Shown in pieces: positions 1 through 15,184 of a DNA stretch of 37,662 nucleotides. Within the stretch, counting starts at the first letter, position 1. Each line of letters starts with the position of its first letter. Made by a program: the position numbers and the translations under genes. The stretch is from a virus. The notes beneath the pieces were generated by a model. That model saw only the letters and a list, made by a program, of their open reading frames with translations, was not told the origin of the DNA and ran no database searches. The stretch is from positions 1 to 37,662 of the IMG/VR virus record IMGVR_UViG_3300009285_001844; one strand, given 5' to 3'.

Positions 1-154
1 CAGGAACATCTCTATCCTCTATGTAGGCGTATTTATCTATAAAATACTCTACACTTTTGGAGGATTTACGAAATTCCAACTCAACCTTTAAGGACGCTTT
101 TTCCCTTAACTTCTGAGCGGATAGTTTTTTCTTTTCCTTTTGTTGATCGGTCAT
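1..154 (-). CDS. Probable terminase large subunit, N-terminus only
   Basis: Runs off the left edge; 51 codons visible from an ATG preceded by AAGGTGATC. The peptide starts with a lysine-rich helix (MTDQQKEKKK) and then has a segment 'VEYFIDKYAYIEDRDVP', which resembles the stretch just ahead of the ATPase domain of phage large terminases (F-I-x-x-Y-x-Y-I). No Walker motif is in view. It lies downstream of a terminase small subunit on the same strand with two small genes between, which is the expected place. The family call is inference from a short segment and position. Confidence 0.5.
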   Translation of the reverse strand, partial: MTDQQKEKKKLSAQKLREKASLKVELEFRKSSKSVEYFIDKYAYIEDRDVP

Positions 155-177
155 AAGATCACCTTGTTATTTATCAG

Positions 178-645
178 TTAACTAAACGGTATAACATTGT
201 AGTCAATACCGTTGATGTATGCCCATTTGACTAGATCCATGAGTTTAGGTTTGTCACATATCCAATCACTACTGACATATACCTGCATGTAACTTTCATT
301 TGCTACCACAAGTGCTTCTTTGAAATGTTCTTCTGTTACAGAGAACCAACCTTTATCACACTCAATTTTAGGGTTGGCATTATTCAATATTTGCTTTGCC
401 GCATCTAAATATTCAGGGCGACATAGAATGATAGTTGGTTCAACTTCATATATAGTGTCAGTGTTTTTATTAACAGAATTACGTAACATTGAAGTAATGT
501 TACTTCTCATTAAATCACTCTGTTCTTTAGTCAACTTTAATGGATTAGGTTCAACCGTAAACGGTATACACATAGATGTATCAATACTTGACTTAGCGGT
601 ACTGTCTGATTTAAGAGTTTGATAATGTATGTCGTTGCTACACAT
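178..645 (-). CDS. Hypothetical protein, 155 aa
   Basis: ATG with a good SD (GGAGGTG) eight bases upstream; ends 24 bases before the probable large terminase gene. The N-terminal 45 residues are Ser/Thr-rich and polar, the rest alternates short predicted helices and strands; no signal peptide, membrane segment or cysteine cluster. I do not recognise the family. Its place between the two terminase genes suggests an accessory phage gene co-transcribed with packaging genes. Confidence 0.7.
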   Translation of the reverse strand: MCSNDIHYQTLKSDSTAKSSIDTSMCIPFTVEPNPLKLTKEQSDLMRSNITSMLRNSVNKNTDTIYEVEPTIILCRPEYLDAAKQILNNANPKIECDKGWFSVTEEHFKEALVVANESYMQVYVSSDWICDKPKLMDLVKWAYINGIDYNVIPFS

Positions 646-665
646 GATAACACCTCCGTTCTCGA

Positions 666-851
666 TTAATCGTACTTAGGAAACTTAACTGAATCATTGT
701 CAACTAGACTTTTTGCCTTATCTCTTGCTATGTCGATAATATTGTCATAACCAATATCGAGTAAGGCGAATCTGCTGAATGATATATTGATGTTGATGTA
801 TTCTCTGTCTATTTCCTCAGATACAGAAACATCTATTTCATTGCCTATCAT
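666..851 (-). CDS. Hypothetical acidic protein, 61 aa
   Basis: ATG preceded by AAGGAGAG at seven bases. Very acidic, Ile/Asp-rich, with alternating hydrophobic residues ('REYININISF') that suggest a small beta-rich fold. Lies 20 bases upstream of the 155-aa gene and should be on the same transcript. Function not recognised. Confidence 0.65.
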   Translation of the reverse strand: MIGNEIDVSVSEEIDREYININISFSRFALLDIGYDNIIDIARDKAKSLVDNDSVKFPKYD

Positions 852-1288
852 TTGAGTTCTCTCCTTATTACGTAGTTAACTGACTTTTGGTAGTTTATGA
901 AATGCGTAACTGTTTAGATGGTGATAGCATAAGGTACAGGTACCACCGCCAGGAGTCCCGCCAATCCATACCGGGGGGTGTTTGACCCCCACCCCCTCTT
1001 TTTGGCGAATATCCTGCTAAATACGTGCGCTCGCGCTCCTGCTCATGTATGCGCTGCGCTCTGTGCGTACAATACAGTGTCACAACCCTGCGCCTGTGAA
1101 GTGGAGCAGGTACGGTGAAATGTCCACCACAGCAGGACAATTGGCGTTTTTGGTACCAGTAATAGTACCTGTAAACAGAGAAACCCAGCAACTACGCACG
1201 TTACAAGGTTCCTGCTAGTTGACATAATATTTATTATCGGACCTGCGATAGGTACAGCGCGTACATATCTATACTGCTTTCGGGGTAA
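852..1288. other. 437-base non-coding gap with repeated AGGTAC words
   Basis: No convincing gene: the open frames here lack a ribosome binding site and have Arg/Cys-rich, unprotein-like composition. The gap is GC-richer than its surroundings and contains a GGGGGT-GTTTG-ACCCCC hairpin (about 974-990). The word AGGTAC recurs at 932, 938, 1108 and 1250 and inverted (GTACCT) at 1165, with GGTACC at 940-ish and 1152. It separates the terminase small subunit from the genes leading to the large subunit, so a packaging (cos or pac) recognition region is one reading. That role is inference. Confidence 0.4.
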
Positions 1289-1720
1289 CTAATCCTCCAG
1301 CAACTTTTCGAGTTCCTCGTCCGACATCCCAGCTATGCGAACATCTACAGGGCCGCCGTCAGCGCCCGTGAGCTCCATTGATACGTTTTCCCTATACTTC
1401 TGCGGCATAGCTCCTTTGGTGGCGAATATAAGCAATGTATCTGAGTATTTCCGCACCGTTCCGCACTCCTGACCTTGATAGAATACCGGCTCCAGAACTC
1501 CCTCGACGGCTCTACGCCTGACTTCCTGCTCTAGTCGGTCACAGGCTTGTTTCTCAGCTTCCCGGAATCGTTCGACGTATTCAGCATTTTCCATCCATTG
1601 ATAATGAGATGTCCGGCTAATTCCGGCCAATTCGGCTGCATGTGTAACCGTTCCCACTTCTGCATATGCGGCCAAGAACGCTTCCCTTTTAGCCTGAACA
1701 GATTTGTCATGGTCGCTCAT
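1289..1720 (-). CDS. Phage terminase small subunit
   Basis: DNA-recognition subunit that binds the packaging site and hands DNA to the large terminase. Residues 1-50 form a helix-turn-helix ('TVTHAAELAGISRTSHYQWM'), followed by a long charged helix (E-K-Q-A-C-D-R-L-E-Q-E-V) and the motif 'DTLLIFATKGAMPQKYRENV', which is characteristic of this family in Bacillota phages. Length 143 aa is typical. I chose ATG 1720 because GAGGTG sits nine bases upstream; a GTG at 1732 is in the same frame but overlaps that SD. Gene order (regulator, small then large subunit) supports the call. Confidence 0.88.
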   Translation of the reverse strand: MSDHDKSVQAKREAFLAAYAEVGTVTHAAELAGISRTSHYQWMENAEYVERFREAEKQACDRLEQEVRRRAVEGVLEPVFYQGQECGTVRKYSDTLLIFATKGAMPQKYRENVSMELTGADGGPVDVRIAGMSDEELEKLLED

Positions 1721-1771: not shown

Positions 1772-2293
1772 CTACTTCTTTGTCTCTGCATACTTCGCTT
1801 TCACCCAGTCCGGCAAATAACAATCCAGTTGATTCCTGAATATCAGATATAGATTCAAAGGTATCCTGTTGCTGCTGAAAAAATAAATAGGGTTGACATA
1901 GAAATGTACTTCTTTCTTTTCTCCAGCTTCTACATTCACCTTTGCCATGATTCCCAGATCAATCATTTTACGCACAAACTTCTTTGCCTGGTATTCTTTT
2001 AGTTCTATCACTTCGCCAATTTGCTTTTCATTGTACGGACGTATTCCACCATTTCCGCGGTATCCGAGCATATTCGTATTTGACCAAATTTTCTTTGCCA
2101 ACGTTGCCATTTGTCCGCGTTCTTTCATCGTTGTCTCAGGTGGGAAGTCTATATCCAAAAAGGATTTTGCGAAACCTTTCCGCGCCCAAAACAGATAACC
2201 TTTTTCCTCGTCAAAAGACGATGCTATGTAGCGCACATTTTTTCCGCGCAACTCTCCTGTTTCCTCTTCTATGTAGCGTGTTTCTTTGAGCAT
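1772..2293 (-). CDS. Winged-helix DNA-binding protein, RepL/MarR-like
   Basis: 173 aa from an ATG with AGGTGG seven bases upstream. The start 'ETRYIEEETGEL' is a pattern seen in plasmid RepL-type and related phage proteins. The middle has a winged-helix signature: 'NEKQIGEVIELKEYQAKKFV' (helix-turn-recognition helix) followed by 'MIDLGIMAKV' and a beta wing, then 'FYVNPIYFF'. This fits a MarR/RepL-like fold that binds DNA either as a regulator or a replication initiator; sequence alone does not decide. It is monocistronic, with a long untranslated leader carrying a terminator-like hairpin, so its expression is probably controlled by premature termination. It separates terminase from the inverted cassette to the right. 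Confidence 0.6.
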   Translation of the reverse strand: MLKETRYIEEETGELRGKNVRYIASSFDEEKGYLFWARKGFAKSFLDIDFPPETTMKERGQMATLAKKIWSNTNMLGYRGNGGIRPYNEKQIGEVIELKEYQAKKFVRKMIDLGIMAKVNVEAGEKKEVHFYVNPIYFFSSNRIPLNLYLIFRNQLDCYLPDWVKAKYAETKK

Positions 2294-2477
2294 TTTACCA
2301 CCTGATTTCTCGTTGGTTTTTCGTACTATTTCGAAAGTCAAAACACGCAAAAAAACCAACAGTAAAAAACAACTCAAACCGTTGGTATTTCTGGCTTTGC
2401 AGGTTTTGGTCACGAAAAGATGCATATAAAAGATATATAGGTATCTTTGCATGGTCGGTTTTTCTCTCGCTTCTATA

Positions 2478-2504
2478 CAAAACAAAAAGCACCCTCTCGG
2501 ATGC
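2478..2504 (-). terminator. Intrinsic terminator or attenuator in leader
   Basis: Minus strand reads GCATCC-GAGA-GGGTGC followed by TTTTTGTTTTG: a six-pair stem (one G-U), a GNRA-type loop and a T tract. It lies about 185 bases upstream of the winged-helix gene and downstream of a promoter-like sequence, with no intact gene before it, so attenuation is more likely than simple termination. Confidence 0.6.
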
Positions 2505-2582
2505 TCCACAAACAGTATTCGTCTACCTAAAACAGTAGGCAGACACAAATAAAAAAACATGGTATAAAACTCCCACTATATC

Positions 2583-2611
2583 ATTTTATCACGGTTAAAC
2601 CCCGAAAACAA
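2583..2611 (-). promoter_or_regulatory. Candidate promoter for the winged-helix gene
   Basis: Minus strand TTGTTT, 17 bases, TAAAAT. The -35 is weak and the -10 is five of six. Transcription would begin near 2575 and read a roughly 280-base leader containing an inverted repeat GTCTGCCT...AGGTAGAC (2512-2535) and the terminator-like hairpin at 2478-2504. The whole gap 2294-2870 otherwise holds only the plus-strand control region at 2818-2851. Confidence 0.4.
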
Positions 2612-2817
2612 GAAAAACTTTACGTTTTCCGCATATCCATAGAAAATAGATACACTTTTCTCTTCTCCACACCCTCCACAACAAAAACAGCTTCGCCACA
2701 GCGCCCATACAGCCACACAAAACACATTGCAGGTATGTTTGTACCTCCAATTTGTGTATGGTCACTACAAGCACGTTTGCAGGGGTTTTCGTGTTGTTTC
2801 TATAGTAGCGGAAAAGC

Positions 2818-2851
2818 TGGGTTGCCATATGGATATCCAGTATGTTATACT
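2818..2851 (+). promoter_or_regulatory. Promoter overlapped by two RHH-type operator boxes
   Basis: TTGCCA (2822-2827) and TATACT (2846-2851) with 18 bases between, or TTATAC with 17, form a plus-strand promoter 20 bases ahead of the RHH gene. It overlaps TGGGTTGCCA (2818-2827) and the perfect palindrome TGGATATCCA (2830-2839), whose starts are 12 bases apart, about one helical turn. Two further copies (TGGGTATCCA) follow the gene. This arrangement suggests autorepression by the RHH protein. Confidence 0.6.
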
Positions 2852-2870
2852 ATCATTGGAGGTGATTCAA

Positions 2871-3071
2871 ATGTCAGCAAAGCGGAAAGAAAAATATAGA
2901 GAAGGCTGGGAAAGTTTTAATTTGCGCCTGTCTATAGAAGATAAAGCAAAACTAGCCGAAATATCAACAAATACGCGGGTTCCAGCATCGGAAATAGCCA
3001 GAACTGCTATCAAAAAAGAAATTGCGGAAATTCAAAAAACGCTGAAAAAGGCAGATACGGCTAGTATCTAG
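2871..3071 (+). CDS. Ribbon-helix-helix regulator, 66 aa
   Basis: Small DNA-binding protein with the CopG/Arc-like plan: a short N-terminal strand ('SFNLRLS'), helix A ('EDKAKLAEISTN'), a turn ('TRVPASEIAR') and helix B ('TAIKKEIAEIQKTL'). Such proteins bind as dimers, the strand entering the major groove, and normally repress their own promoters. ATG 2871 has a near-perfect SD (GGAGGTGATT). It is the first gene of the plus-strand cassette, and the palindromic boxes before and after it are the natural candidates for its binding sites. RHH antitoxins look similar, but no toxin-like gene follows. Confidence 0.75.
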   Translation: MSAKRKEKYREGWESFNLRLSIEDKAKLAEISTNTRVPASEIARTAIKKEIAEIQKTLKKADTASI

Positions 3072-3085
3072 TAGGCTGGATAAGC

Positions 3086-3144
3086 TGGGTATCCATAAAT
3101 AGCTGAATATGACGTTAAATCGGGCTAGACGGTATGGGTATCCA
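3086..3144 (+). promoter_or_regulatory. Two TGGGTATCCA boxes after the RHH gene
   Basis: Exact copies of TGGGTATCCA at 3086-3095 and 3135-3144, one mismatch from the palindrome at 2830-2839. They sit between the RHH gene and the next gene, the second just upstream of a TATAAG hexamer (3153-3158), so they may control a second start site for the cassette. Confidence 0.5.
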
Positions 3145-3204
3145 CATGATAGTATAAGCACATGGAACACAGCAACAAAATAACAACGAGAGGGGATGCA
3201 CTGA

Positions 3205-3429
3205 ATGAGCATAACTAACGTAAGGGAACTGGTTAACAACAAACTATCCCTGTTGGACATAAATAATAAGCACTGCAAAGGCGAAACCGGAGTAACCAGA
3301 ATTGACCACGAACTATCCGGGATAAAGCAGGCACTCAGGATAATGGGATTCGACCTAGAGATAAGAAAAAACCCCTACTTTTGGGAAAACGGCGAACCAT
3401 CTACTTATAAGATTGATTTTGTTGAATAA
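3205..3429 (+). CDS. Hypothetical protein, 74 aa
   Basis: ATG with GAGAGGGG upstream. Basic N-terminal half, with a pattern of two amphipathic helices ('TRIDHELSGIKQALRIMG') and a polar tail. No recognised domain. Second gene of the inverted cassette; followed by two small hairpins (3431-3444 and 3472-3483, the latter CCCC-TTC-GGGG) before the next ribosome binding site. Confidence 0.7.
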   Translation: MSITNVRELVNNKLSLLDINNKHCKGETGVTRIDHELSGIKQALRIMGFDLEIRKNPYFWENGEPSTYKIDFVE

Positions 3430-3522
3430 ACTCTTTGCGGAGAGTCTAAACAGCCTTAAGCCGCAAGCGTTCCCCTTCGGGGGAGGTGGCAAGTTAAAAC
3501 TAAATACGAGGGGGATACACAC

Positions 3523-3741
3523 ATGAAAATTCACAACGGCGAGAACATCGACATCACGGTAGTTACCGACTTAGGCGAAACTGTAATACCTGCTAAAACC
3601 ACAGTTGAAGTCGAAATTCCAGAGGATGCAATCTTAAACCTGCACGACCACACCATGTATGTGCAGGAAGAAGGGAACTGGTACAGTAAGACGGAACAAT
3701 GCTACACAGGCGCAGACATGGAAATCTACCTGGAAGGTTAG
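3523..3741 (+). CDS. Hypothetical acidic protein, 72 aa
   Basis: ATG with GAGGGGG upstream. Net strongly negative, with alternating hydrophobic residues suggesting a small all-beta protein ('DITVVTDLGETVIPA', 'TTVEVEIPEDAIL'). Small acidic phage proteins of this kind include anti-restriction and inhibitor proteins that mimic DNA, but nothing specific supports that here. Confidence 0.7.
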   Translation: MKIHNGENIDITVVTDLGETVIPAKTTVEVEIPEDAILNLHDHTMYVQEEGNWYSKTEQCYTGADMEIYLEG

Positions 3742-3746
3742 TCGAA

Positions 3747-3762
3747 ACCGGGTTCGCCCGGT
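3747..3762 (+). other. Intergenic hairpin with UUCG loop
   Basis: ACCGGG-TTCG-CCCGGT, a perfect six-pair stem closed by an exceptionally stable tetraloop. It is followed by AGCAGG (3764-3769) ... CCTGCT (3780-3785), a second stem. No T tract follows, so it is not a classical terminator. One of a series in this cassette. Confidence 0.65.
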
Positions 3763-3865
3763 CAGCAGGAATTTGTCTACCTGCTCTGAGGATGACAGAC
3801 AAAGCGCACCGCACACGCATAACTCCTTTAGAGAGGGGTTTTGTTGAGGCAAAGGAGGAATATCA

Positions 3866-4096
3866 ATGACAACAACAATAATGCTACTAGACGAGCAAGG
3901 CAACATTTCCGAACTGGCAGTTTACACCTTGCCGGCAAAGCAAGCGTTAATTGCTTACCGCCAAAAGTTTGAGTTCAAAAACGGCAATACCTGGACTTAC
4001 CCCAGCGAGGATGCAGTAATTCGTGAAATGCGAGGGGGTGAATACTGCTACTTCCGAGGTGATGCCAACATTTTCACCAGGTCCGCGACTACCTAA
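3866..4096 (+). CDS. Hypothetical protein, 76 aa
   Basis: ATG with AAAGGAGG at eight bases. Mixed alpha/beta pattern: 'TTTIMLLDEQGNISELAVYTL' looks like two strands with a turn, then 'PAKQALIAYRQKF' a helix. Two aromatic clusters near the end. Not recognised. Its stop codon lies in the loop of the next hairpin (GCGACT...AGTCGC, 4085-4102). Confidence 0.68.
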   Translation: MTTTIMLLDEQGNISELAVYTLPAKQALIAYRQKFEFKNGNTWTYPSEDAVIREMRGGEYCYFRGDANIFTRSATT

Positions 4097-4138
4097 AGTC
4101 GCAGTTTTACCCAAATCCTTTTGCGAGGAGGGTTTACT

Positions 4139-4441
4139 ATGCAATTTCAAAAAATCCAGAACAAGATTGACGCTCAGAACTTTTGCCAAAACATCAAAAA
4201 AATCCGCACTTCCGAGGGCGAACCAGTTGCCCAGCGCAACGAGGGAGGGGATCTGGTTATAAACCTCACGTCGGGCGCAAACAGTGTATATAGCATTTAT
4301 ATTTACCCCGACCACTGGGACTGTAGTATCCAGGGCGAGGGCATGAGCGCACCGGCAGAAACCATACCAAACGAAGTTGACTGGATATACAAAAGGCGCG
4401 AAATGGTCAACCGCTCGTTCCTGCCGATTTGGGACATATAG
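4139..4441 (+). CDS. Hypothetical protein, 100 aa
   Basis: ATG 4139 chosen because GAGGAGGG lies seven bases upstream; an in-frame start 18 bases earlier overlaps that SD. N-terminal helix ('KIQNKIDAQNFCQNIKKI') then a beta-rich part with 'SVYSIYIYPDHWDCSIQGEG'. No recognised family. Followed by the hairpin CCTACC...GGTAGG (4454-4471). Confidence 0.68.
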   Translation: MQFQKIQNKIDAQNFCQNIKKIRTSEGEPVAQRNEGGDLVINLTSGANSVYSIYIYPDHWDCSIQGEGMSAPAETIPNEVDWIYKRREMVNRSFLPIWDI

Positions 4442-4506
4442 TCTTTCGTGGTGCCTACCTTCCGGGGTAGGTAGTATGAAACACTATTTTGAGGGGAGGA
4501 ACCATA

Positions 4507-4911
4507 ATGTTAGCAACAGCCGAAAACATGCACCACAGCCCCACACAGGGGAGCAAAACGCCGGAAGGTACAAATACACCCAGACTAAACAAATATCGTG
4601 TCAGACTGCATTTTAGGGAAATTATGTGCGCCGGTCAGGTTATCCCAAAGGGCACCAGTACAGAGATAGTTTGGGGAGCTTCGCCGCTGGATGCAATTAT
4701 CCACACAGTAGATCGTTACCGCGATCCCGAAATGGTTTTAGTGTGGGCCGAGGTGGTTGACTGGTATCCGGTTAGGGTCTATTTACCTGCAAATTGGGGA
4801 AGTCCTGCATTTGTTCACGACGACGAAATTTTGGCCAGCAGTCGGCAAGATGCTTGCGCCAACGCTGTTTGGAATTGGCCAAAAGCGGAGAGGGTGGAGG
4901 TGATCGGATAA
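4507..4911 (+). CDS. Two-repeat protein of a ~45-residue module
   Basis: 134 aa from ATG 4507 (GAGGGGAGG upstream). After a polar N-terminal segment it contains two copies of one module. Copy 1, residues about 28-82, starts 'KYRVRLHF' and ends 'VWAEVVDW'; copy 2, residues about 83-134, starts 'YPVRVYLP' and ends 'KAERVEVIG'. Both carry a central 'WGASPLDAI..TV' or 'LASSRQDACANAV' segment. The next gene is a third, free-standing copy. The module looks like beta-alpha-beta with conserved aromatic residues; no known family comes to mind. Overlaps the next gene by one base (TAATG), so translation is coupled. Confidence 0.7.
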   Translation: MLATAENMHHSPTQGSKTPEGTNTPRLNKYRVRLHFREIMCAGQVIPKGTSTEIVWGASPLDAIIHTVDRYRDPEMVLVWAEVVDWYPVRVYLPANWGSPAFVHDDEILASSRQDACANAVWNWPKAERVEVIG

Positions 4912-5045
4912 TGAAAAAATACAGGGTAAGGTATTATTGTAAGGATTATTCGTGGGTCATTTCCGTGCTATCGGTTAACCCTCTAAGTGCTTGCATATAT
5001 ACTGTCTTATGGAATAAGGCAGAATGGGCGGAGGTGGTGGGATGA
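4911..5045 (+). CDS. Single-module paralogue, 44 aa
   Basis: Starts in the TAATG overlap with the preceding gene; SD GGAGGTG lies inside that gene. 'KKYRVRYYCKDYSW' then 'NPLSACIYTV' then 'KAEWAEVVG' repeat the plan of both modules of the 134-aa neighbour. Looks like a recent duplication product or the ancestral single unit. Confidence 0.65.
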   Translation: MKKYRVRYYCKDYSWVISVLSVNPLSACIYTVLWNKAEWAEVVG

Positions 5046-5155
5046 TGACTAAGTTAGTTTATCTTAGAATTTACGGGAGTTTAACCGCTAAGTTTCCTTA
5101 CCCTGCCCCCTTAGAGAGGGGTGGCGATAGGGAAATTGAGAGGGAGGATGATATT

Positions 5156-5365
5156 ATGGGATTTACATATGACGAGTTCATCAAGAAATATGCGGACGCC
5201 GAGAGGGAAGCGAGAAGAAAGTTAGTAGACAAACTTTTAAATTCGGATAACAGTTTTATGTATGTCGAAGATTTATCCAGCGGTCAAAATGGTTGGACGT
5301 TGGGACTAAGAGATCGCAATGAATTCTGGTTGGAATGGTTGTACCGCGTAAACATAGTAGACTAA
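5156..5365 (+). CDS. Hypothetical charged protein, 69 aa
   Basis: ATG 5156 chosen for the SD AGGGAGGATG nine bases upstream. The frame is also open back to ATG 5042, which overlaps the previous stop as ATGA and would add 38 residues; that extension has poor protein character and contains a TTAGAGAGGGG sequence also seen in the 3742-3865 gap. Long charged helix ('EFIKKYADAEREARRKLVDKLL') then a Trp-rich C-terminus. Function unknown. Confidence 0.65.
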   Translation: MGFTYDEFIKKYADAEREARRKLVDKLLNSDNSFMYVEDLSSGQNGWTLGLRDRNEFWLEWLYRVNIVD

Positions 5366-5381
5366 CATTTATTTTTTTTGC

Positions 5382-5423
5382 TTGACAGGTGATTCACCAA
5401 GCTATATAATAAGTGCATCACCT
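5382..5423 (+). promoter_or_regulatory. Consensus promoter with palindromic operator
   Basis: TTGACA (5382-5387), 17 bases, TATAAT (5405-5410): an exact sigma-70/sigma-A consensus. The spacer contains GGTGATTCACC (5388-5398), a perfect five-plus-five palindrome, and ATCACC recurs just after the -10 (5417-5422), inverted to the first GGTGAT. A promoter this strong needs repression, and the RHH/zinc-ribbon gene that follows is the obvious repressor. Confidence 0.8.
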
Positions 5424-5438
5424 AAGCAGGAGGGCAAC

Positions 5439-5765
5439 ATGACTATACCTAAAGACAAAATACGCATCAGCATAACCTTCCCCAAGCCGCTTGCCCGAAA
5501 ACTGAAGGAGCAGGCAAAGAGGGAAGGGAAGGGAATTAGTGAGGTAGTTGTTAGAAAATTTATGCCGGGAGAACCGGCGAAGGAGGAAAAAAAGATGAAT
5601 ATAGACTTAAATAAGATTTGTGATTGTGGTGCAGAACTACATTTTGACAGCACGATTGATGGCAACGAGCGCGAATATATGCAAACCGGGGAGCATCTTC
5701 ACAAAACCGTTTGCCCGAACTGCGGTGAACGCTGGCAGTTTAGGGAGTCCGATATTGTTGACTAG
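5439..5765 (+). CDS. RHH domain fused to a zinc ribbon, 108 aa
   Basis: ATG 5439 with AGGAGGG at six bases. Residues 1-45 are an RHH fold: strand 'RISITFPKPLARKLKEQA' with helix, then 'EGKGISEVVVRKFM'. After a charged linker (PAKEEKKMN), residues 60-108 hold two Cys pairs, 'CDCG' and 'CPNCG', consistent with a four-Cys zinc ribbon. The RHH part should bind the palindromes over its own consensus promoter; the ribbon may contact protein or nucleic acid. A re-initiation start inside (ATG of 'MNIDLNKICDCG', SD AAGGAGG) could also give the zinc ribbon alone. Confidence 0.75.
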   Translation: MTIPKDKIRISITFPKPLARKLKEQAKREGKGISEVVVRKFMPGEPAKEEKKMNIDLNKICDCGAELHFDSTIDGNEREYMQTGEHLHKTVCPNCGERWQFRESDIVD

Positions 5766-5800
5766 CAGGGTTTAATCCCCTGCCGAGCGTCTAACGGACG
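5765..5800 (+). other. Paired intergenic hairpins
   Basis: GCAGGG-TTTAATC-CCCTGC (5765-5783, beginning inside the stop codon) followed by CGTC-TAACG-GACG (5788-5800). No T tract; the SD of the next gene follows 20 bases later. Confidence 0.55.
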
Positions 5801-5835
5801 TTGGGTAGGAGATTAAAAACTAAGGAGGTAGTATA

Positions 5836-6054
5836 ATGTTACATCTGCCATCAGGGGAAAAACTGAAACATAAACTAGAAAAGGTAAACGTCATGTCATA
5901 CACTGGGAAATGTTGCAAGAGATGTATTCACTACAAAAGTAAACATGCTGGATTTGAAACATGTGGCACAAGACCGTGCTACATATACATCTCTTGTGAA
6001 TTCTGCAGTATGGTTAAATGCATATGTTTCAAACCAGAATCACCGACAGATTAA
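5836..6054 (+). CDS. Cys-rich miniprotein, 72 aa
   Basis: ATG with AAGGAGGTA nine bases upstream. Nine cysteines between residues 26 and 64, arranged as CCKRC, CGTRPC, CEFC and CIC, with His and Tyr around them, suggest one or two bound zinc ions. An internal ATG at residue 20 ('MSYTGKCC') is an alternative start but has a weaker SD. Unknown function. Confidence 0.65.
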   Translation: MLHLPSGEKLKHKLEKVNVMSYTGKCCKRCIHYKSKHAGFETCGTRPCYIYISCEFCSMVKCICFKPESPTD

Positions 6055-6071
6055 CAAAAGGAGGGACTAAA

Positions 6072-6152
6072 ATGCAATACAAAATAACCTGCGGTTACAT
6101 GCCGCACGAGGCGCAATGTCACCGCAACGGGCAGTGTGAGGGGGTGAAATAA
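6072..6152 (+). CDS. Very small Cys/His peptide, 26 aa
   Basis: ATG preceded by AAGGAGGGAC; three Cys and two His in 26 residues (C-x8-C-x5-C). Its last codons contain the SD of the next gene, so the two are coupled. Too short for certainty, but the strong SD and the tight spacing argue that it is translated. Confidence 0.5.
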   Translation: MQYKITCGYMPHEAQCHRNGQCEGVK

Positions 6153-6154
6153 CC

Positions 6155-6355
6155 GTGAAACCACCAGAATGTCGCACTCTAGTTAGTATGGGAGTAACTG
6201 CTCAAACTGTACCGTCTTGTGTTTGCGCTATGTCAACCGACTGCCCAGGTTTTTGCTCACAGCCAGAATTTCGCGGTTGGTTGGGCGGTTGTTGCCCGGA
6301 ACTTTGCCCTTGGAAGAAAGGGCATTTAGACGAGGAGGTGAAAAATAATGATTAG
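6155..6355 (+). CDS. Cys-rich miniprotein, 66 aa
   Basis: Starts with GTG two bases after the preceding stop; SD GAGGGGGTG. Eight Cys, including CVC, CPGFC, CCPELC and a single near the N-terminus; Trp-rich between. Likely metal-binding or disulphide-bonded. The C-terminal 'DEEVKNND' overlaps the SD and start of the next gene by eight bases. Confidence 0.62.
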   Translation: MKPPECRTLVSMGVTAQTVPSCVCAMSTDCPGFCSQPEFRGWLGGCCPELCPWKKGHLDEEVKNND

Positions 6356-6572
6356 TGTAGCAATTCTAACAGGGCCGTTTGGTCACAAAACTTTATTCCT
6401 TGGCAAAACTGCCGAGGAAATGATCGCCTCTCACAAAGGCGATGATGAAAACTGTACCCTTGAAATTAGAGAGGTACACGACATTGCCGGTAGCTTAGTT
6501 GTTAGTCTCAACCAGTCCGAGGTCGTTACCTCAAATACCCGCATTTGCAACATGCCGAACTGCGGAGTTTAG
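6348..6572 (+). CDS. Hypothetical protein, 74 aa
   Basis: ATG within the end of the preceding gene, SD GAGGAGGTG. The first strand 'MISVAILTGPFGHKTLFLG' and a following helix 'TAEEMIASHKG' suggest a small alpha/beta domain; two Cys at the C-terminus (ICNMPNC). Not recognised. Followed by an eight-pair hairpin CTGCTCAC/GTGGGCAG (6583-6605). Confidence 0.66.
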   Translation: MISVAILTGPFGHKTLFLGKTAEEMIASHKGDDENCTLEIREVHDIAGSLVVSLNQSEVVTSNTRICNMPNCGV

Positions 6573-6582
6573 TTTCTTGTAA

Positions 6583-6605
6583 CTGCTCACGTCGCATGTG
6601 GGCAG
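6583..6605 (+). other. Intergenic hairpin, 8-pair stem
   Basis: CTGCTCAC-GTCGCAT-GTGGGCAG with one G-U pair. Lies 10 bases after a stop and about 20 bases before the next SD, in the same relative position as the other hairpins in this cassette. Confidence 0.55.
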
Positions 6606-6641
6606 GACGGGAGAAATTAAATTGAGGGAGGAATTGAAACT

Positions 6642-7109
6642 ATGAAAACTATCCAGATGTCCAGAAAGAATTTTTTCCCGTACCGTGTAAAGGCATTTGA
6701 TAAGTGGGTAATGCCTGCCGAGATTAAGGAAATAGAGTCACTCAGGGTTTTTGAGGAAGGAAGTTGCTGTAATTTTCCGTTCGCGTTCTGTTTCTTAAAT
6801 CCAACCCAGGAGGATCTGGAGTTAGTGGAAAACTACCTCCATGAGCAGGTTAAGTCTAAGTTGCCTGGATTCGTCTATAAAGATAGTTACAGCGCAGCAG
6901 AAACCAGTGTAGGTTGTGGAGCAAATAAACCGAGCGTCTACAAGATCAAAGCAGATCGAGTTTTAGAGAAAAACCCAGTCAGAGAGTTCCGCGCACCATA
7001 TTATAGTTGGGACGTTAGAGAAAGCAGTTACCCTTGTGTTCAGGAAAAAATAGAGTTTTTTGCGCAAATCCTGGAGTGGATTTATATTGGAGATTGCGAA
7101 CTACTATAA
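6642..7109 (+). CDS. Hypothetical protein, 155 aa
   Basis: Largest gene of the inverted cassette. ATG with GAGGGAGG nine bases upstream. Basic N-terminus, 'PTQEDLELVENYLHEQVKS' helix, aromatic middle ('APYYSWDVRE'), hydrophobic C-terminal helix 'KIEFFAQILEWIYIG'. Five scattered cysteines, no metal-site spacing. No family recognised. Confidence 0.72.
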   Translation: MKTIQMSRKNFFPYRVKAFDKWVMPAEIKEIESLRVFEEGSCCNFPFAFCFLNPTQEDLELVENYLHEQVKSKLPGFVYKDSYSAAETSVGCGANKPSVYKIKADRVLEKNPVREFRAPYYSWDVRESSYPCVQEKIEFFAQILEWIYIGDCELL

Positions 7110-7120
7110 AAAATCTGGTT

Positions 7121-7143
7121 TGTGGTCAACCGCGAAAACCACA
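7121..7143 (+). other. Intergenic hairpin
   Basis: TGTGGT-N11-ACCACA, immediately before the SD GAGGGAGG of the next gene, so the stem could modulate ribosome access. Confidence 0.5.
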
Positions 7144-7158
7144 GAGGGAGGAATAAAG

Positions 7159-7338
7159 ATGAAAAGAATAACGGAATGTAAGCATCTTGTCAATGATCGT
7201 GAGTGCAATATTTCACATCCATTCCAGTGTGAAATAACTTTTGGCGTAATATGCTGCTTTACCTGCTCACTTAAAACACAGTGTTTTAGAGTCTGCAACA
7301 CTGTTAAAGAGGTATTGCAAGGGGAGGAAGAAAAATGA
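7159..7338 (+). CDS. Cys-rich miniprotein, 59 aa
   Basis: ATG 7159 with GAGGGAGG eight bases upstream. Eight cysteines (C7, C16, C24, then CCFTC, CFRVC) plus two His point to a zinc site. Ends in an ATGA overlap with the following gene, whose SD (GGGGAGG) is within this one. Unknown function. Confidence 0.66.
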   Translation: MKRITECKHLVNDRECNISHPFQCEITFGVICCFTCSLKTQCFRVCNTVKEVLQGEEEK

Positions 7339-7637
7339 AAACTGCAATAAGGATAGAGGGCATAACACTACTTAGTATACGCGGTAAATTGCTCGCAATG
7401 GATTATAGTCATATGCCTTACAGTAAGGTAGGCAAAGCAAGATTTTGGGTGAAGGAGGTATCAGTAAACTCTGCACCCGAAGAAATTACGAAGTTAAAAG
7501 AAATGGGGTTGAAATTTTCGTTCTGCGCCTTGTCTACGTCGGGGATAACCATTAGATCCCTGAAAGACAGGGACGTTAAAGAAGTCATCGGAGAGGAGGT
7601 TATTGAAAAACTATTTGAACTTCAAGGACAGCGTTAG
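7335..7637 (+). CDS. Hypothetical protein, 100 aa
   Basis: ATGA overlap with the upstream gene. Strand-helix pattern: 'IRIEGITLLSIRGKLLAMDY', then 'EITKLKEMGLKFSFCALS', then a C-terminal helix 'DVKEVIGEEVIEKLFEL'. Not recognised. Followed by a nested hairpin: CTTTCG/CGAAGG outside (7639-7644, 7671-7676) and TCTCCTG/CAGGGGA inside. Confidence 0.68.
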   Translation: MKTAIRIEGITLLSIRGKLLAMDYSHMPYSKVGKARFWVKEVSVNSAPEEITKLKEMGLKFSFCALSTSGITIRSLKDRDVKEVIGEEVIEKLFELQGQR

Positions 7638-7638
7638 T

Positions 7639-7676
7639 CTTTCGTTATCTCCTGCCTTGTCAGGGGATGCCGAAGG
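7639..7676 (+). other. Nested intergenic hairpin
   Basis: Outer CTTTCG/CGAAGG and inner TCTCCTG/CAGGGGA stems with a CCTTGT loop, about 38 bases, directly after the stop codon. No T tract. Confidence 0.55.
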
Positions 7677-7699
7677 ATTAAAACAAGGGGGATTTTTAG

Positions 7700-7864
7700 A
7701 TGTATACATGCGAATTTTACACAGGTAAACGTCTTATATTTGCGCTTAATCTATGTTTTGTGCCGCAAATCGGTATGTTTATTCATACCGTAGACACTGC
7801 GGTTAAAGTTGCCGGAGTTTCATATCACCACAACCTAAATATGTTTAAAGTTTACGTAGACTAA
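7700..7864 (+). CDS. Hypothetical miniprotein, 54 aa
   Basis: ATG with AAGGGGG ten bases upstream. Aromatic and beta-rich: 'YTCEFYTGKRLIFALNLCFV' then 'GVSYHHNLNMFKVYVD'. It fits the spacing of its neighbours and is followed by the hairpin GGTCGG...CCGACC (7876-7898). Function not recognised. Confidence 0.6.
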   Translation: MYTCEFYTGKRLIFALNLCFVPQIGMFIHTVDTAVKVAGVSYHHNLNMFKVYVD

Positions 7865-7875
7865 AATAAATAGCC

Positions 7876-7898
7876 GGTCGGGGCTAAAAATACCGACC
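7876..7898 (+). other. Intergenic hairpin
   Basis: GGTCGG-N11-CCGACC between the 54-aa and 110-aa genes, followed within seven bases by the SD AAGGAGG. Confidence 0.55.
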
Positions 7899-7912
7899 AT
7901 GAAGGAGGAAAA

Positions 7913-8245
7913 ATGAACATTATCAACCTTACCCCACACGACGTAAAGTTGTGTTACGGCGGCGAAGAGTATGTTTTCCCTAATGCCGGAACGGCTGCTC
8001 GTGTTGCTTCAAGATCAGAATTTTCTCATACCGTCAATGGTCTGCCCGTACACAAAACCATTTACGGGAGCATTGAAAACCTTCCCGAACAGGTGGAAGG
8101 AACAATCTATATAGTTGCCCTACTTGTCGCTCAGGTTTTGGGCGGTTCCAGGTCAGACGTTATTTGCCCCGACACTGGCCCTGATTCGGCAGTTAGGGAC
8201 GGTAAGGGGTTGATAGCAGGAGTCAAAAGGTTTATGATACCTTAG
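7913..8245 (+). CDS. Conserved phage protein of the 'NLTPHDV' family
   Basis: 110 aa. The opening 'MNIINLTPHDVKLCY', the middle 'AGTAARV' and 'YGSIENLPEQVEGTIYIVALLVAQVL', and 'RSDVICPDTGPDS' form the pattern of a small protein found in many phages and actinobacterial genomes, in which a beta-rich N-terminus is followed by 'G.IYIVS..VA.A...R.D...P'. No biochemical role is established that I know of. SD AAGGAGG six bases upstream. The only member of the cassette with a family I recognise. Confidence 0.72.
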   Translation: MNIINLTPHDVKLCYGGEEYVFPNAGTAARVASRSEFSHTVNGLPVHKTIYGSIENLPEQVEGTIYIVALLVAQVLGGSRSDVICPDTGPDSAVRDGKGLIAGVKRFMIP

Positions 8246-8294
8246 TTATTAAAACGGTTCGGGGTGAACCTTAAACCCCAGGGGAGGAATAATT

Positions 8295-8675
8295 ATGCAA
8301 GATAAGATTAATAAATTAGTTGGAGATATCTTGTCAGGAATTATTAAAAGTCCTGACATTGAGGACATCATTAAGTTTGAAGTAGGTTTACCGCTCGGTA
8401 GACATATCATGGAAATATCAGTAGAGCAGGCAGTTGACGCTATTAAGAAACATCATGTGGAGATATTTAAGTTGCTTAATCGCCCTAAATTTTACTCTTT
8501 CCAAGGTATTGTTATGGAAGAGGTTTGCCCCGTCTGCAATGGCGATCCTGATAATTCACCAGACAAGAATGACCGCGGTAGGTGTAATAGATGTTTGTGG
8601 AGAGGTAAAATACTTACTCCCGAAGGTAAGAAATTAGTTGATTTTCTTACGAATTATTTACCTTTTTCGCAATAA
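8295..8675 (+). CDS. Zinc-finger protein, 126 aa
   Basis: ATG with GGGGAGG nine bases upstream. The first 75 residues are helical ('DKINKLVGDILSGIIK', 'EQAVDAIKKHHVEIFKLL'); residues 79-103 hold CPVC and CNRC pairs in a treble-clef/ribbon spacing, then 'WRGKILTPEGKKLVDFL'. Last gene of the plus-strand cassette. The ribbon resembles those of DnaJ-like or phage nucleic-acid-binding proteins; function unknown. Confidence 0.68.
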   Translation: MQDKINKLVGDILSGIIKSPDIEDIIKFEVGLPLGRHIMEISVEQAVDAIKKHHVEIFKLLNRPKFYSFQGIVMEEVCPVCNGDPDNSPDKNDRGRCNRCLWRGKILTPEGKKLVDFLTNYLPFSQ

Positions 8676-8681
8676 CAGCAA

Positions 8682-8703
8682 AGCAGGGGATCTCTCCCCT
8701 GCT
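8682..8703. terminator. Hairpin between convergent operons
   Basis: AGCAGGGGA-TCTC-TCCCCTGCT, a perfect nine-pair stem with a four-base loop, exactly between the ends of the plus cassette and the long minus operon. There is no clear T tract on either side, so termination efficiency is uncertain, but position and stability fit a bidirectional terminator. Confidence 0.6.
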
Positions 8704-9143
8704 CACCGCAATAATCCCCTTCTAACCGCCAACGTCCGTCCCTGCTCCAATATCACCTGCCAGCGATTATAAACCGTTCTCATACTTACCCCAAGTTCCA
8801 TGACAATTAGTTTTTTCACCGAACTTCCGCGCACATAATCCTTATGCGTCCGCTTTAATCCCAACAGTAGTTTATCATCATCATTCAAACCTGCTACCAA
8901 TTCCTTAACTACCTGCAACCACGTTTCCGTTACCGCTAACGATGCCAATGCGATCCCTGCCGATGCCGTCCTATTGCCTGTCGTGCTACCTCTTGGCATA
9001 CCGTCGGGAGGTGGGGGAGAGTTTTCGAGTATTCTCTCCCGGTCCTGCTCGTACTGATGTTTTATGTCGTGATAGTTGATTAGATAGTTAGCGACTATTA
9101 GTTTTTCTTGTTTGAACGGATCAGCGAGAGGTATTTTACTCAT
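8703..9143 (-). CDS. ArpU/RinA-like phage late-gene regulator
   Basis: 146 aa. Central helices 'ALASLAVTETWLQVVKELVAGL' and a C-terminal sigma-region-4-like helix-turn-helix 'MELGVSMRTVYNRWQVILEQG'. Small proteins of this plan (ArpU, RinA and relatives) lie at the end of the early operon in Bacillota phages and activate terminase and structural genes. Here the gene is the last of the long minus operon and is linked to the transporter gene by an ATGA overlap. In related phages the terminase small gene follows directly; here the inverted cassette intervenes. Confidence 0.65.
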   Translation of the reverse strand: MSKIPLADPFKQEKLIVANYLINYHDIKHQYEQDRERILENSPPPPDGMPRGSTTGNRTASAGIALASLAVTETWLQVVKELVAGLNDDDKLLLGLKRTHKDYVRGSSVKKLIVMELGVSMRTVYNRWQVILEQGRTLAVRRGLLR

Positions 9144-9655
9144 TTACGACCTCCCATTTTTACCATACCTGCCCCGACTGCCTGCATAGTTAACTTTATC
9201 AGCGATTGTCCAATTATCGCCATCGGAACTACTGACCAAGGCATAAATCCCATACCCCAAGGTGATAGTCCAAGCACAATAAACACCGTACTGTCAAGTA
9301 TTCCTCCAACGAAACCTGACCACCACACACGCCAGTGGACCGGCAGTTTTAACCTCGTGTAAATCTCAGTGTCGGTTGTTTCGCTTACCGCAAATGCTAT
9401 TATAGAAGCAATGACCACGGGTAAACCCTGTCCCATTGTTGCCGATTGTATCAGTGATAAAAGAAGTGCTACACTTATGAACGCATATGTCATATATCTG
9501 CCATGTTTTTGTTGCACTAAGTCCCTGAGAATAAAAGTTGCCCCTATCGTAAATGTGCCTAAACTTATTAAAAATGGGCCAATGTTTACGGGTGCGAAGG
9601 TGCTAGATAACCAATTTCCGGCCAAAATTGCCGCTACGTAAAGAAATACTATCAC
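9140..9655 (-). CDS. Queuosine-precursor transporter, YhhQ/VUT family
   Basis: 171-aa integral membrane protein with about five to six hydrophobic helices: 'MIVFLYVAAILAGNWLSS', 'FLISLGTFTIGATFILRDL', 'ALLLSLIQSATMGQG', 'VVIASIIAFAVSETTD', 'WWSGFVGGILDSTVFIVLG'. The 'FILRDLVQ..G' segment and 'VSETTDT' with 'G..DS..F' are hallmarks of the YhhQ (QPTR/VUT) family, which takes up 7-deazaguanines such as preQ0. Starts inside the end of the DpdA-like gene (ATGA, 9652-9655) and ends overlapping the ArpU-like gene, so all three are translated together. Pairing with a transglycosylase supports precursor import for DNA modification. Confidence 0.82.
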   Translation of the reverse strand: MIVFLYVAAILAGNWLSSTFAPVNIGPFLISLGTFTIGATFILRDLVQQKHGRYMTYAFISVALLLSLIQSATMGQGLPVVIASIIAFAVSETTDTEIYTRLKLPVHWRVWWSGFVGGILDSTVFIVLGLSPWGMGFMPWSVVPMAIIGQSLIKLTMQAVGAGMVKMGGRK

Positions 9656-10509
9656 GCTATGCCCTCCAAATAATCCCTAAAGTTTATTGTATTGATTAAT
9701 GCTAAGTCCCTCGGATGATAGTTAATATACTTGTCTTGTCTGGTGTATTTCGCTTCCCATTTGCCAGTGTCGGGACTAAATACACCACCAAAAACTGATC
9801 TGCGCTCTGCTGATGAACTGTCAACGCTGAGATTAAAATCATATGGTCTTGCTATTTCTACCCATCTTTCAAGTACAGGTATAGCAGTTACCCCGAACAG
9901 GTGAATATCGGTTATGCCGGCATCTTTTATTAGCGGAAATGACTTCTCCTGTATTTCAAAAAATTGCGGTTGTAGTGTTTTTCTCGCCCCGATTATACAA
10001 AACCCACCCATCCCAATACAGTCCTGCGGTTGCGCTATGCGTAACACCTCTTTTAGACAGGTCAAATATTGTTCTGTAGTCGTACCCTGATTAGACAAAA
10101 CTAACTGACGAGGTGCTAATTTATCCCGTTGACTAACTAAATACTGTGCAGCTCCCACAGTGTCTTTGACGTATTCCCAACCGTTGTCCTCGTCAACGCG
10201 ACATTTTACCTTTTTACCTTCTTTCAACTGCTCGTCAACTAACCTGTCATAACTGACTATTCGCTGAGACACAAAACCTGCCGCCTGCTCAAAATTGAGT
10301 TGACGATTAAGTGCTTCTTCATACGTCAGTCTTTTATCCTTATCAACATCTTGGAACGCTCCTGAGTCAAGGAGGACGTTCACCCCCCCCCTATATATTC
10401 TCACCGTCTTATATATAGGGTTAAGGCAAAGGTTGTCAGTTATATACTCAGGAACCCACGGGCGGCGGTTAAGTCTGTTATTGTTTTTAGATACATAAAA
10501 CTTTAACAT
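9652..10509 (-). CDS. dpdA: DpdA-like DNA guanine transglycosylase
   Basis: 285 aa, TIM-barrel member of the tRNA-guanine transglycosylase superfamily. Motifs align in order: 'LLDSGAFQ' (47-53, general acid/base Asp, like DSGGFQ in bacterial TGT), 'SYDRLVD' (86-92), 'GMGGF' (166-170, like GGLAVGE), 'HLFGVTAIP' (203-211) and 'SVDSSSAERRS' (228-238, the Asp in the position of the TGT nucleophile). The C-terminal CxCxxC zinc site of true TGT is absent and the protein is about 90 residues shorter, as in phage DpdA proteins, which swap guanine in DNA for a 7-deazaguanine. No precursor synthesis genes (FolE, QueD, QueE, QueC) are in the window; the coupled transporter could supply the base. The exact modified base cannot be read from sequence. 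Confidence 0.8.
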   Translation of the reverse strand: MLKFYVSKNNNRLNRRPWVPEYITDNLCLNPIYKTVRIYRGGVNVLLDSGAFQDVDKDKRLTYEEALNRQLNFEQAAGFVSQRIVSYDRLVDEQLKEGKKVKCRVDEDNGWEYVKDTVGAAQYLVSQRDKLAPRQLVLSNQGTTTEQYLTCLKEVLRIAQPQDCIGMGGFCIIGARKTLQPQFFEIQEKSFPLIKDAGITDIHLFGVTAIPVLERWVEIARPYDFNLSVDSSSAERRSVFGGVFSPDTGKWEAKYTRQDKYINYHPRDLALINTINFRDYLEGIA

Positions 10510-14310: not shown

Positions 14311-14501
14311 CAAATCAACCTCTCAAATCTCCGCATTAACTTAAATCCCCTAAAAACATAGTCGGTAAATTCCTCCAAACTCCTATTCCAAACTACGCCG
14401 GTACTGCGCGCACGATATTTCACGTTGTCATTTTTGACCGAAACAATATCGTATACGCTGCCCTTAAAATGTCTGTATGTTTGCCCTTGTTTTGGTGTCA
14501 T
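14310..14501 (-). CDS. DUF1653 protein, 63 aa
   Basis: 'GQTYRHFKGSVYDIVSV', 'YRARSTGVVWNRSLEEF' and 'RRFERL' match the DUF1653 domain, a small SH3-like barrel common in bacteria and phages, with no proven activity. ATGA overlap with the PP-loop gene upstream. Length is typical. Confidence 0.78.
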   Translation of the reverse strand: MTPKQGQTYRHFKGSVYDIVSVKNDNVKYRARSTGVVWNRSLEEFTDYVFRGFKLMRRFERLI

Positions 14502-15184
14502 GCTGAATCCCTTTCTTTGCGACTAATTAACTGCCTCAATGTTTCTCCTTGCCGGACAGTGTAACCAATCTCATTTTCCAGATCTGCAATTTTACTAAAT
14601 AAGTCAGGGTAGAATTTACTCAACTGAACCCACTCGTCAATAGTATTAAAAATGCATCCATAACAACCAAGTCTAGTAAAATGCTTATACACCGGATTGG
14701 GCACAAGTCCCGCCTGTCTAATCCCCGTAAATATATCTCCGGTTGTTAGGTTTAATAGCGGACGACAACCGCCAATTCTCAATTTTTGGTTATAATAATG
14801 TTCCTGATAAGTTGACCTCTTTTTACTTTCCTCTCTGCGCTCACCTGTTAGCATTATGTCATCGTATCGGTCTATACCTGCGCTAGTTATCCATTTAGTT
14901 AATGGTGCTTGTTTTAAGTCTGACGTACAAAATCTATTTCTAGCATCAGGAAACTTACTTCTATGTCGGCAGTAAGAAAAATAATCCCACTTATCGCTTT
15001 TAATGCGATGTATTTTTATACCCAACTTTATTTCGAGATAGTTCAGGTATTCGTATGTTTCTGGAAACTCACAACCAGTGTCAGCACTAACAAAGATACA
15101 ATTTTCTCGACCATATCTATAAAGAGCATATGCCGTTAAATAAGTAGAGTCTTTGCCTCCCGACACACTTACAACCACTCTCAT
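14498..15184 (-). CDS. PAPS-reductase-like PP-loop protein
   Basis: 228 aa adenine-nucleotide alpha-hydrolase fold with PP-loop 'VSVSGGKDS' (residues 5-13), 'VSADTGCEFPETYEYL', 'NRFCTSDLKQAPL' and a C-terminal 'GLVPNPVYKHFTRLGCYGCIF' with CYGC. This is the phosphoadenosine-phosphosulfate-reductase family as found in phages; relatives include DndC, which works in DNA phosphorothioation, but no Dnd partners are present. It may therefore activate a nucleotide or act on sulfur for another modification. It follows a 308-base gap that may carry structured RNA. Confidence 0.8.
   Translation of the reverse strand: MRVVVSVSGGKDSTYLTAYALYRYGRENCIFVSADTGCEFPETYEYLNYLEIKLGIKIHRIKSDKWDYFSYCRHRSKFPDARNRFCTSDLKQAPLTKWITSAGIDRYDDIMLTGERREESKKRSTYQEHYYNQKLRIGGCRPLLNLTTGDIFTGIRQAGLVPNPVYKHFTRLGCYGCIFNTIDEWVQLSKFYPDLFSKIADLENEIGYTVRQGETLRQLISRKERDSA

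Follow-up and report, generated by a model that had tools for sequence, protein, structure and literature searches.

An inverted block of small genes at a constant site in related phages, with predicted self-cleaving ribozymes and long hairpins between its genes

We here analyzed a block, or cassette, of 19 small genes (c01 to c19) at positions 2871–8675 of a 37.7 kb virus record (IMGVR_UViG_3300009285_001844, hereafter the window, meaning the whole stretch of 37 662 nucleotides), where it lies between the gene for the small subunit of the terminase (TerS) and a regulator-like gene. Judging from the sequences compared, we lean towards the view that this block is a resident, inverted and repressor-controlled accessory operon, whose transcript ribozymes, and probably RNase III, would cleave to give short mRNAs. 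Self-cleaving ribozymes flanking c03 would cut one long polycistronic transcript, and host RNase III would most likely cut it at hairpins of 17–24 bp located between a stop codon and the next ribosome-binding site, giving separate short mRNAs with defined and hairpin-protected ends. The RNA elements would probably also serve as sites of gene exchange between phages, with the contents of the block turning over and its joints persisting.

The position of the block and the turnover of its genes were directly observed. All relatives spanning the region from TerS to the regulator had an inverted block of about 5–7 kb (the window and the related contigs L003, L004, L015 and L018), and partial blocks were found at the same site in L009, L010, L014, L016, L020 and L024. 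When open reading frames (ORFs) in the relatives were called with a simple purpose-written script, the 123 proteins of 11 blocks fell into 88 families, 69 of them singletons. With an inverted block in all spanning relatives and families that are mostly singletons, the site is thus constant and its content accessory, and a run of the same kind at the same place having mostly different genes looks like a gene-exchange platform. A distant contig from a Syntrophomonadaceae metagenome-assembled genome (MAG) also had an inverted block upstream of TerS, of 1.7 kb and with five small ORFs, in which no Rfam ribozymes were found.

Within the window, c03 lies between two predicted ribozymes, positioned as follows (aa, amino acids; dN/dS, ratio of non-synonymous to synonymous substitution rates).

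3430–3491, + strand: predicted Pistol self-cleaving ribozyme (Rfam RF02679, 46.5 bits versus a gathering score of 34.5)
3523–3741, + strand: c03, 72 aa, with a ribozyme on each side (93% identical in L018, dN/dS 0.12)
3741–3796, + strand: predicted type II hammerhead ribozyme, beginning at the stop codon of c03 (descriptor match, homology and covariation)

The Pistol sequence of the window could form the pseudoknot between the P1 loop and the P2–P3 junction (UUGCGG/CCGCAA), and in L003, L024 and L042 this pseudoknot was paired too, by other letters, all as judged by eye. Pistol also exceeded the Rfam gathering score in L003, L024, L038 and L042. In L024 (oriented 7392–7488) the Pistol broke off inside the P3 loop, with promoter DNA following, and 51 bases across its start were identical to the Pistol of the window.

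The type II hammerhead of the window had a complete CUGANGA...GAAA core with stems I–III paired and stem II open. A descriptor for this class matched the window and relatives, with no match of that score in 2.1 Mb of shuffled sequence. Among eight distinct sequences all 18 pairs were formed (100%) and five pairs covaried, the pseudoknot included, in covariation counts where related sequences are counted several times. This pseudoknot, between loop I and the 3′ tail, had its six pairs formed in 8/8 sequences, with one pair occurring as three types. A model (R2) made from the eight sequences gave the window copy, itself in the training set, 78.9 bits, and it matched no contig more than once and nothing elsewhere in 300 kb; matches to training sequences hold by construction, and L039 was an independent match. 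Type I hammerheads were also seen by eye in L015, L016, L020 and L024, with a descriptor match only in L016. These are leads only, because shuffles gave a few matches of similar score and Rfam lists no type I hammerhead in L015, L016, L024 or L020. A RAGATH-18 RNA (62 bits) was found outside the cassette in L017 (11078–11141, + strand); RNAs derived from RAGATH-18 guide IS607 TnpB nucleases (PMC11061315).

Most of the longer gaps between the remaining genes contained other elements, and those of the window were the following.

4439–4486, + strand: E9, extended hairpin of 20 bp from the stop codon of c05, also in L009 with a different upstream gene
5085–5143, + strand: E10, extended hairpin of 24 bp, also in L004 and L009, between different genes
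5767–5821, + strand: E11, extended hairpin of about 20 bp, with a conserved core in seven distinct sequences
6570–6619, + strand: E12, more interrupted extended hairpin after c13 (z = −3.6), 95% identical in L018 between different genes
7107–7150, + strand: E13, short element, possible H-type pseudoknot (pairing by eye), common to L004 and L018, between different genes
7635–7680, + strand: E14, extended hairpin of 19 bp from the stop codon of c16 (z = −3.5)
8253–8288, + strand: E16, short element, possible H-type pseudoknot (pairing by eye), common to L003, L009 and L018

Four gaps of the window thereby had stems of 19–24 bp and a fifth, E12, was more interrupted. The duplex lengths agree with the about 20 bp in an extended hairpin that are expected of an RNase III site, RNase III being the candidate enzyme. 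Over 11 cassettes, stems of at least 15 bp were present in 36 of 85 gaps; dinucleotide shuffles averaged 2.9 such gaps and never exceeded 6, and only 2 of 114 coding segments had such a stem. Most long hairpins began 0–18 nt after a stop codon and ended 13–21 nt before a start codon, i.e. just before the ribosome-binding site. When similar gaps were paired, 116 of 150 pairs, which are not independent of one another, had different gene families on both sides. In E14, all of the 15 pairs were formed (100%) in six sequences, with two pairs covarying. A pseudoknot was also considered for E11 and not adopted, since its basal pairs are also part of an extended hairpin of greater length, and the counts favored neither model.

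A further RNA, of about 114 nt, was found in the relatives. In ten loci, including L042 and L043 that have the same sequence, it had 27 predicted pairs of which 96.7% were formed, with nine pairs changing on both sides, and its covariation score was reached by none of 500 shuffles; no Rfam family was listed over it in L042. The 114-nt RNA came after hammerhead II in L014, L015, L016, L018 and L039, after Pistol in L003, L024 and L042/L043, and with neither ribozyme directly before it in L020, and it preceded a long hairpin. Because the complete RNA closely follows hammerhead II or Pistol at nine of its ten loci, and precedes a long hairpin, we tentatively propose, as a possibility that we would not yet favor, that the ribozymes are exchangeable processing modules freeing this structured phage RNA, and that the cassette is an RNA-jointed gene-exchange platform. 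The slot before the RNA in L020 (about 540–640, − strand) held a compact sequence with several potential helices and no Rfam match at E ≤ 5, possibly another ribozyme class. The window had no copy of the 114-nt RNA; there, the flank downstream of the hammerhead ran straight into one half of the following hairpin, as a deletion would leave it. In L033 a truncated 114-nt RNA was joined to a gene. Since elements are shared between different genes and junctions lie inside elements in L024, L033 and the window, the RNAs would be candidates for recombination joints. The gene after the truncated RNA in L033 was similar to one in L003 (8133–8426, + strand), coding for a 97 aa cassette protein that by eye resembles a small ADP-ribosyltransferase (YHAT...GF) and had no Pfam match.

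Signals for separate control of the block were the following.

2822–2851, + strand: cassette promoter P1 (TTGCCA-18-TATACT), with the operator TGGATATCCA at 2830–2839 in its spacer
3086–3144, + strand: two more operator copies, TGGGTATCCA (3086 and 3135), upstream of c02
5382–5410, + strand: second promoter (TTGACA-17-TATAAT, 12/12 consensus), with the palindrome GGTGATTCACC in its spacer

The motif TGGRTATCCA occurred in the window only at 2830, 3086 and 3135, with 0.13 matches expected. Both promoters adjoin genes for ribbon-helix-helix proteins (c01 and c09), and L003 and L015 had the same promoter arrangement with spacer palindromes of other sequence. From these spacer operators we infer that two ribbon-helix-helix repressors probably bind and control the cassette promoters.

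The initial annotation had described the block as a mobile cassette, inserted as a unit between the regulator and the terminase and carrying proteins for host takeover or counter-defence. The block has small orphan genes with a high turnover and presumably repressed promoters of its own, and c19 has an anti-TRAP-like zinc domain, all of which would agree with this. The part of the claim that held was that of an accessory, variable and separately controlled block, as borne out by gene turnover among the 11 blocks and by promoters with palindromes. The words inserted and mobile found no such backing. No empty site, lacking a block between TerS and the regulator, was seen among the relatives examined, no terminal repeats were found at the block borders, flanking direct or inverted repeats were none of note, and there was no recombinase within the block; insertion into an otherwise empty site was not supported, the block being present in every relative spanning the site. 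Defence and anti-defence families also gave no convincing match, and we regard such a mobile unit as decidedly unlikely. Conservation of the same block as core genes in all relatives, which the annotation had named as an argument against its proposal, was found for the position, which is constant, but not for the contents, which differ. The RNA elements had escaped the annotation.

That the ribozymes and hairpins should be mainly recombination joints at the DNA level, or degenerate leftovers having little function as RNA, appears very unlikely to us. Elements are indeed common to phages with different flanking genes, the Pistol of L024 is truncated, and L004 and L018 have degenerate sequences resembling type I hammerheads, but compensatory changes keep 100% of the hammerhead pairs, the 114-nt RNA and E14 covary too, and the long hairpins are far above shuffles. 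It is also rather unlikely, although less so, that only the ribozymes cut and that the hairpins are translational or stability elements, such as protein-bound operators or protectors of RNA 3′ ends. The stems ending 13–21 nt before the start codon, adjoining the ribosome-binding site, and the resemblance of c19 to anti-TRAP, a protein linked to RNA-based control, would suit such a role, but stems of mostly 17–24 bp (about two helical turns) with frequent 1 × 1 mismatches are like RNase III substrates. Several points weigh against a processed accessory operon as we propose it. The hammerhead of the window has a G where the core is variable, and one additional U ahead of stem II, and was unlisted by Rfam even at E ≤ 5, while hammerhead II (RF02276) exceeded the gathering score in L015, L020 and L033, so that the window copy is a predicted hammerhead II by homology and structure. 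Minimum free energy z-scores of the two ribozyme gaps were not extreme, E11 covariation was weak because its sequences are too alike, and protection of mRNA ends or protein binding would be alternative roles for the hairpins. The relatives were furthermore drawn mostly from a few metagenomes, so that some junctions could be assembly errors, and each of those in L024, L033 and the window could be one.

As for the genes themselves, 19 short ORFs of 26–155 aa were present on the + strand at 2871–8675, each with a strong purine-rich Shine–Dalgarno sequence. Apart from c03, they were as follows.

2871–3071, + strand: c01, ribbon-helix-helix repressor of 66 aa, presumed autoregulator (PHROG 876, E = 5e-4; Pfam RHH_3 weak; dN/dS 0.15)
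3205–3429, + strand: c02, orphan of 74 aa
3866–4096, + strand: c04, 76 aa, second commonest cassette family (six cassettes, dN/dS 0.14–0.17)
4139–4441, + strand: c05, 100 aa (about 70% identical in L016)
4507–4911, + strand: c06, 134 aa, most widespread cassette family (7 cassettes)
4911–5045, + strand: c07, 44 aa, resembling half of c06 (by eye)
5156–5365, + strand: c08, 69 aa (57% identity in L003 across 69 aligned residues; dN/dS 0.15)
5439–5765, + strand: c09, with a ribbon-helix-helix and a CxC...CxxC domain, presumably the second autoregulator (Pfam RHH_1, E = 0.004, below cut-off)
5836–6572, + strand: c10–c13, four small genes packed tightly, c10 and c12 being Cys-rich
6642–7637, + strand: c14 (155 aa), c15 (Cys-rich) and c16
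7700–8245, + strand: c17 and c18, the latter in PHROG 30542 (E = 3e-24), a family without assigned function
8295–8675, + strand: c19, with a C-terminal anti-TRAP-like zinc-binding domain (Pfam Anti-TRAP and NCBIfam RtpA, each with E = 2e-6 and below cut-off, the former slightly)

Conserved cassette members had dN/dS values of 0.06–0.34, i.e. purifying selection, and ORFs with homologues are therefore real genes. Matches of cassette proteins in Pfam, PHROGs and PADLOC were mostly to regulators (ribbon-helix-helix and helix-turn-helix) and to families without known function, with no convincing match to known anti-defence or toxin families for any of them; PADLOC gave single weak matches, not assigned to any particular protein. 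Small roles against the host or in counter-defence would be plausible. The AlphaFold2 (AF2) model of c06 was of low confidence.

The borders of the block were defined by the following features.

1292–1732, − strand: TerS, flanking gene (tblastn to annotated TerS of phages such as PaMx28)
2470–2632, − strand: non-coding leader towards TerS, conserved (78–90% identical in eight relatives) and including a terminator-like hairpin at 2507–2486 (−)
8682–8703, no strand assigned: hairpin of 9–10 bp between the convergent c19 and regulator genes
8706–9143, − strand: flanking gene for a sigma-region-4-like regulator, at best of the ArpU/RinA type (PHROG 36 ‘transcriptional regulator’, E = 0.023)

Much of the first description of the block stood up to this analysis: all 19 tiny genes were there, the block is on the opposite strand with its neighbours on both sides on the − strand, two promoters each with a spacer palindrome were found, controlled promoters having been claimed, and several products are Cys-rich (c10 with 9 Cys in 72 aa, c12 with 8 in 66 and c15 with 8 in 59) or acidic. 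The terminase small gene at one border is firm by tblastn to annotated TerS genes, its identity among the relatives being 74–95%. The claimed end hairpin is present, but its T-rich tail is on the − strand, i.e. on the side of the regulator. At the other border a regulator-like gene was confirmed, with the ArpU/RinA family label remaining weak, as it had the PHROG 36 match only and none in Pfam or NCBIfam. Its AF2 model was all-helical with a predicted local distance difference test score (pLDDT) of 83, the best PDB matches being sigma −35-binding domains at non-significant E-values, and no regulator of this kind was found in the bacterial genomes searched. Window positions 2470–2810 comprise two conserved non-coding stretches that are nearly contiguous here and about 0.7–1.4 kb apart in L004, L014, L018 and L024; the first, with the − strand terminator-like hairpin, may be a late-operon leader.

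Beyond the regulator, a queuosine-precursor transporter (Vut_1, E = 4e-13) adjoins a 285 aa protein at 9143–10509 (− strand). The latter is by eye like tRNA-guanine transglycosylase/DpdA, with no family match backing this, and the pair suggests 7-deazaguanine modification of the phage DNA. A PAPS-reductase/DndC-like PP-loop protein at 14501–15184 (− strand; NCBIfam PRK13795, E = 1e-20, DndC, 1e-6, and QueC, 0.03) is possibly part of the same modification route.

The gene order in the window is not an assembly artefact, because four other contigs cover the same order: L011, L012 and L013 are near-identical to the window and cover TerS to c16, c05 and c09, respectively, and L002 (59.9 kb), overlapping at 99.9% identity, covers c16 to the regulator. 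Window positions 1–1369 were 100% identical to L024 (oriented 1878–3246), with sharp divergence from mid-TerS onward, a breakpoint that would reflect either recombination or an assembly error. A nucleotide search of 50,697 phage records gave no match for the cassette region or the 114-nt RNA. The nearest relative in a named genome was the Syntrophomonadaceae MAG contig (TerS 58%), which suggests a host among the Bacillota, whereas the best TerS matches among phages were to those of proteobacterial hosts.

Phage T7 has RNase III sites between the genes of its early operon. The cassette resembles that system in that its small genes are separated by extended hairpins about two helical turns long, and differs by having ribozymes mixed in and by its RNase III role being predicted. 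Temperate phages also carry variable accessory regions (morons), similar in that orphan genes vary at a set position and have promoters of their own and a hairpin at the end; here, instead, nineteen genes make up a single block, and RNA elements occupy most of its longer gaps. Prophage hammerheads are known to flank single genes or short blocks, and long phage RNAs were proposed to be processed into single-gene mRNAs (Perreault et al. 2011, PMC3088659); tandem hammerhead arrays cleaved in vitro, and one triple array cleaved when expressed in E. coli (PMC3088659). The cassette shares with those systems ribozymes between small phage genes of inconstant identity. It differs in that Pistol and hammerhead II flank one gene, further gaps have long hairpins, and the ribozyme class ahead of the 114-nt RNA varies among relatives. 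Pistol (RF02679) is known from the neighbourhood of phage genes, for the most part those in Firmicutes (Weinberg et al. 2015; Harris et al. 2015, PMC4604425). The window copy matches known Pistol in sequence and structure above the curated score, but is in a defined inverted cassette next to the terminase and has a P3 shorter than the consensus. Ribozyme-flanked prophage genes are thus already known, and the cassette is a richer variant.

This phage group bears on the question of what self-cleaving ribozymes do for the phages that have them. With natural swaps of the ribozyme class before the same RNA and genes changing around it, the proposed roles, being mRNA processing, small-RNA release or recombination joint, should be separable by simple tests. 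The 88 small-protein families are, in addition, a source of candidate anti-host or counter-defence proteins.

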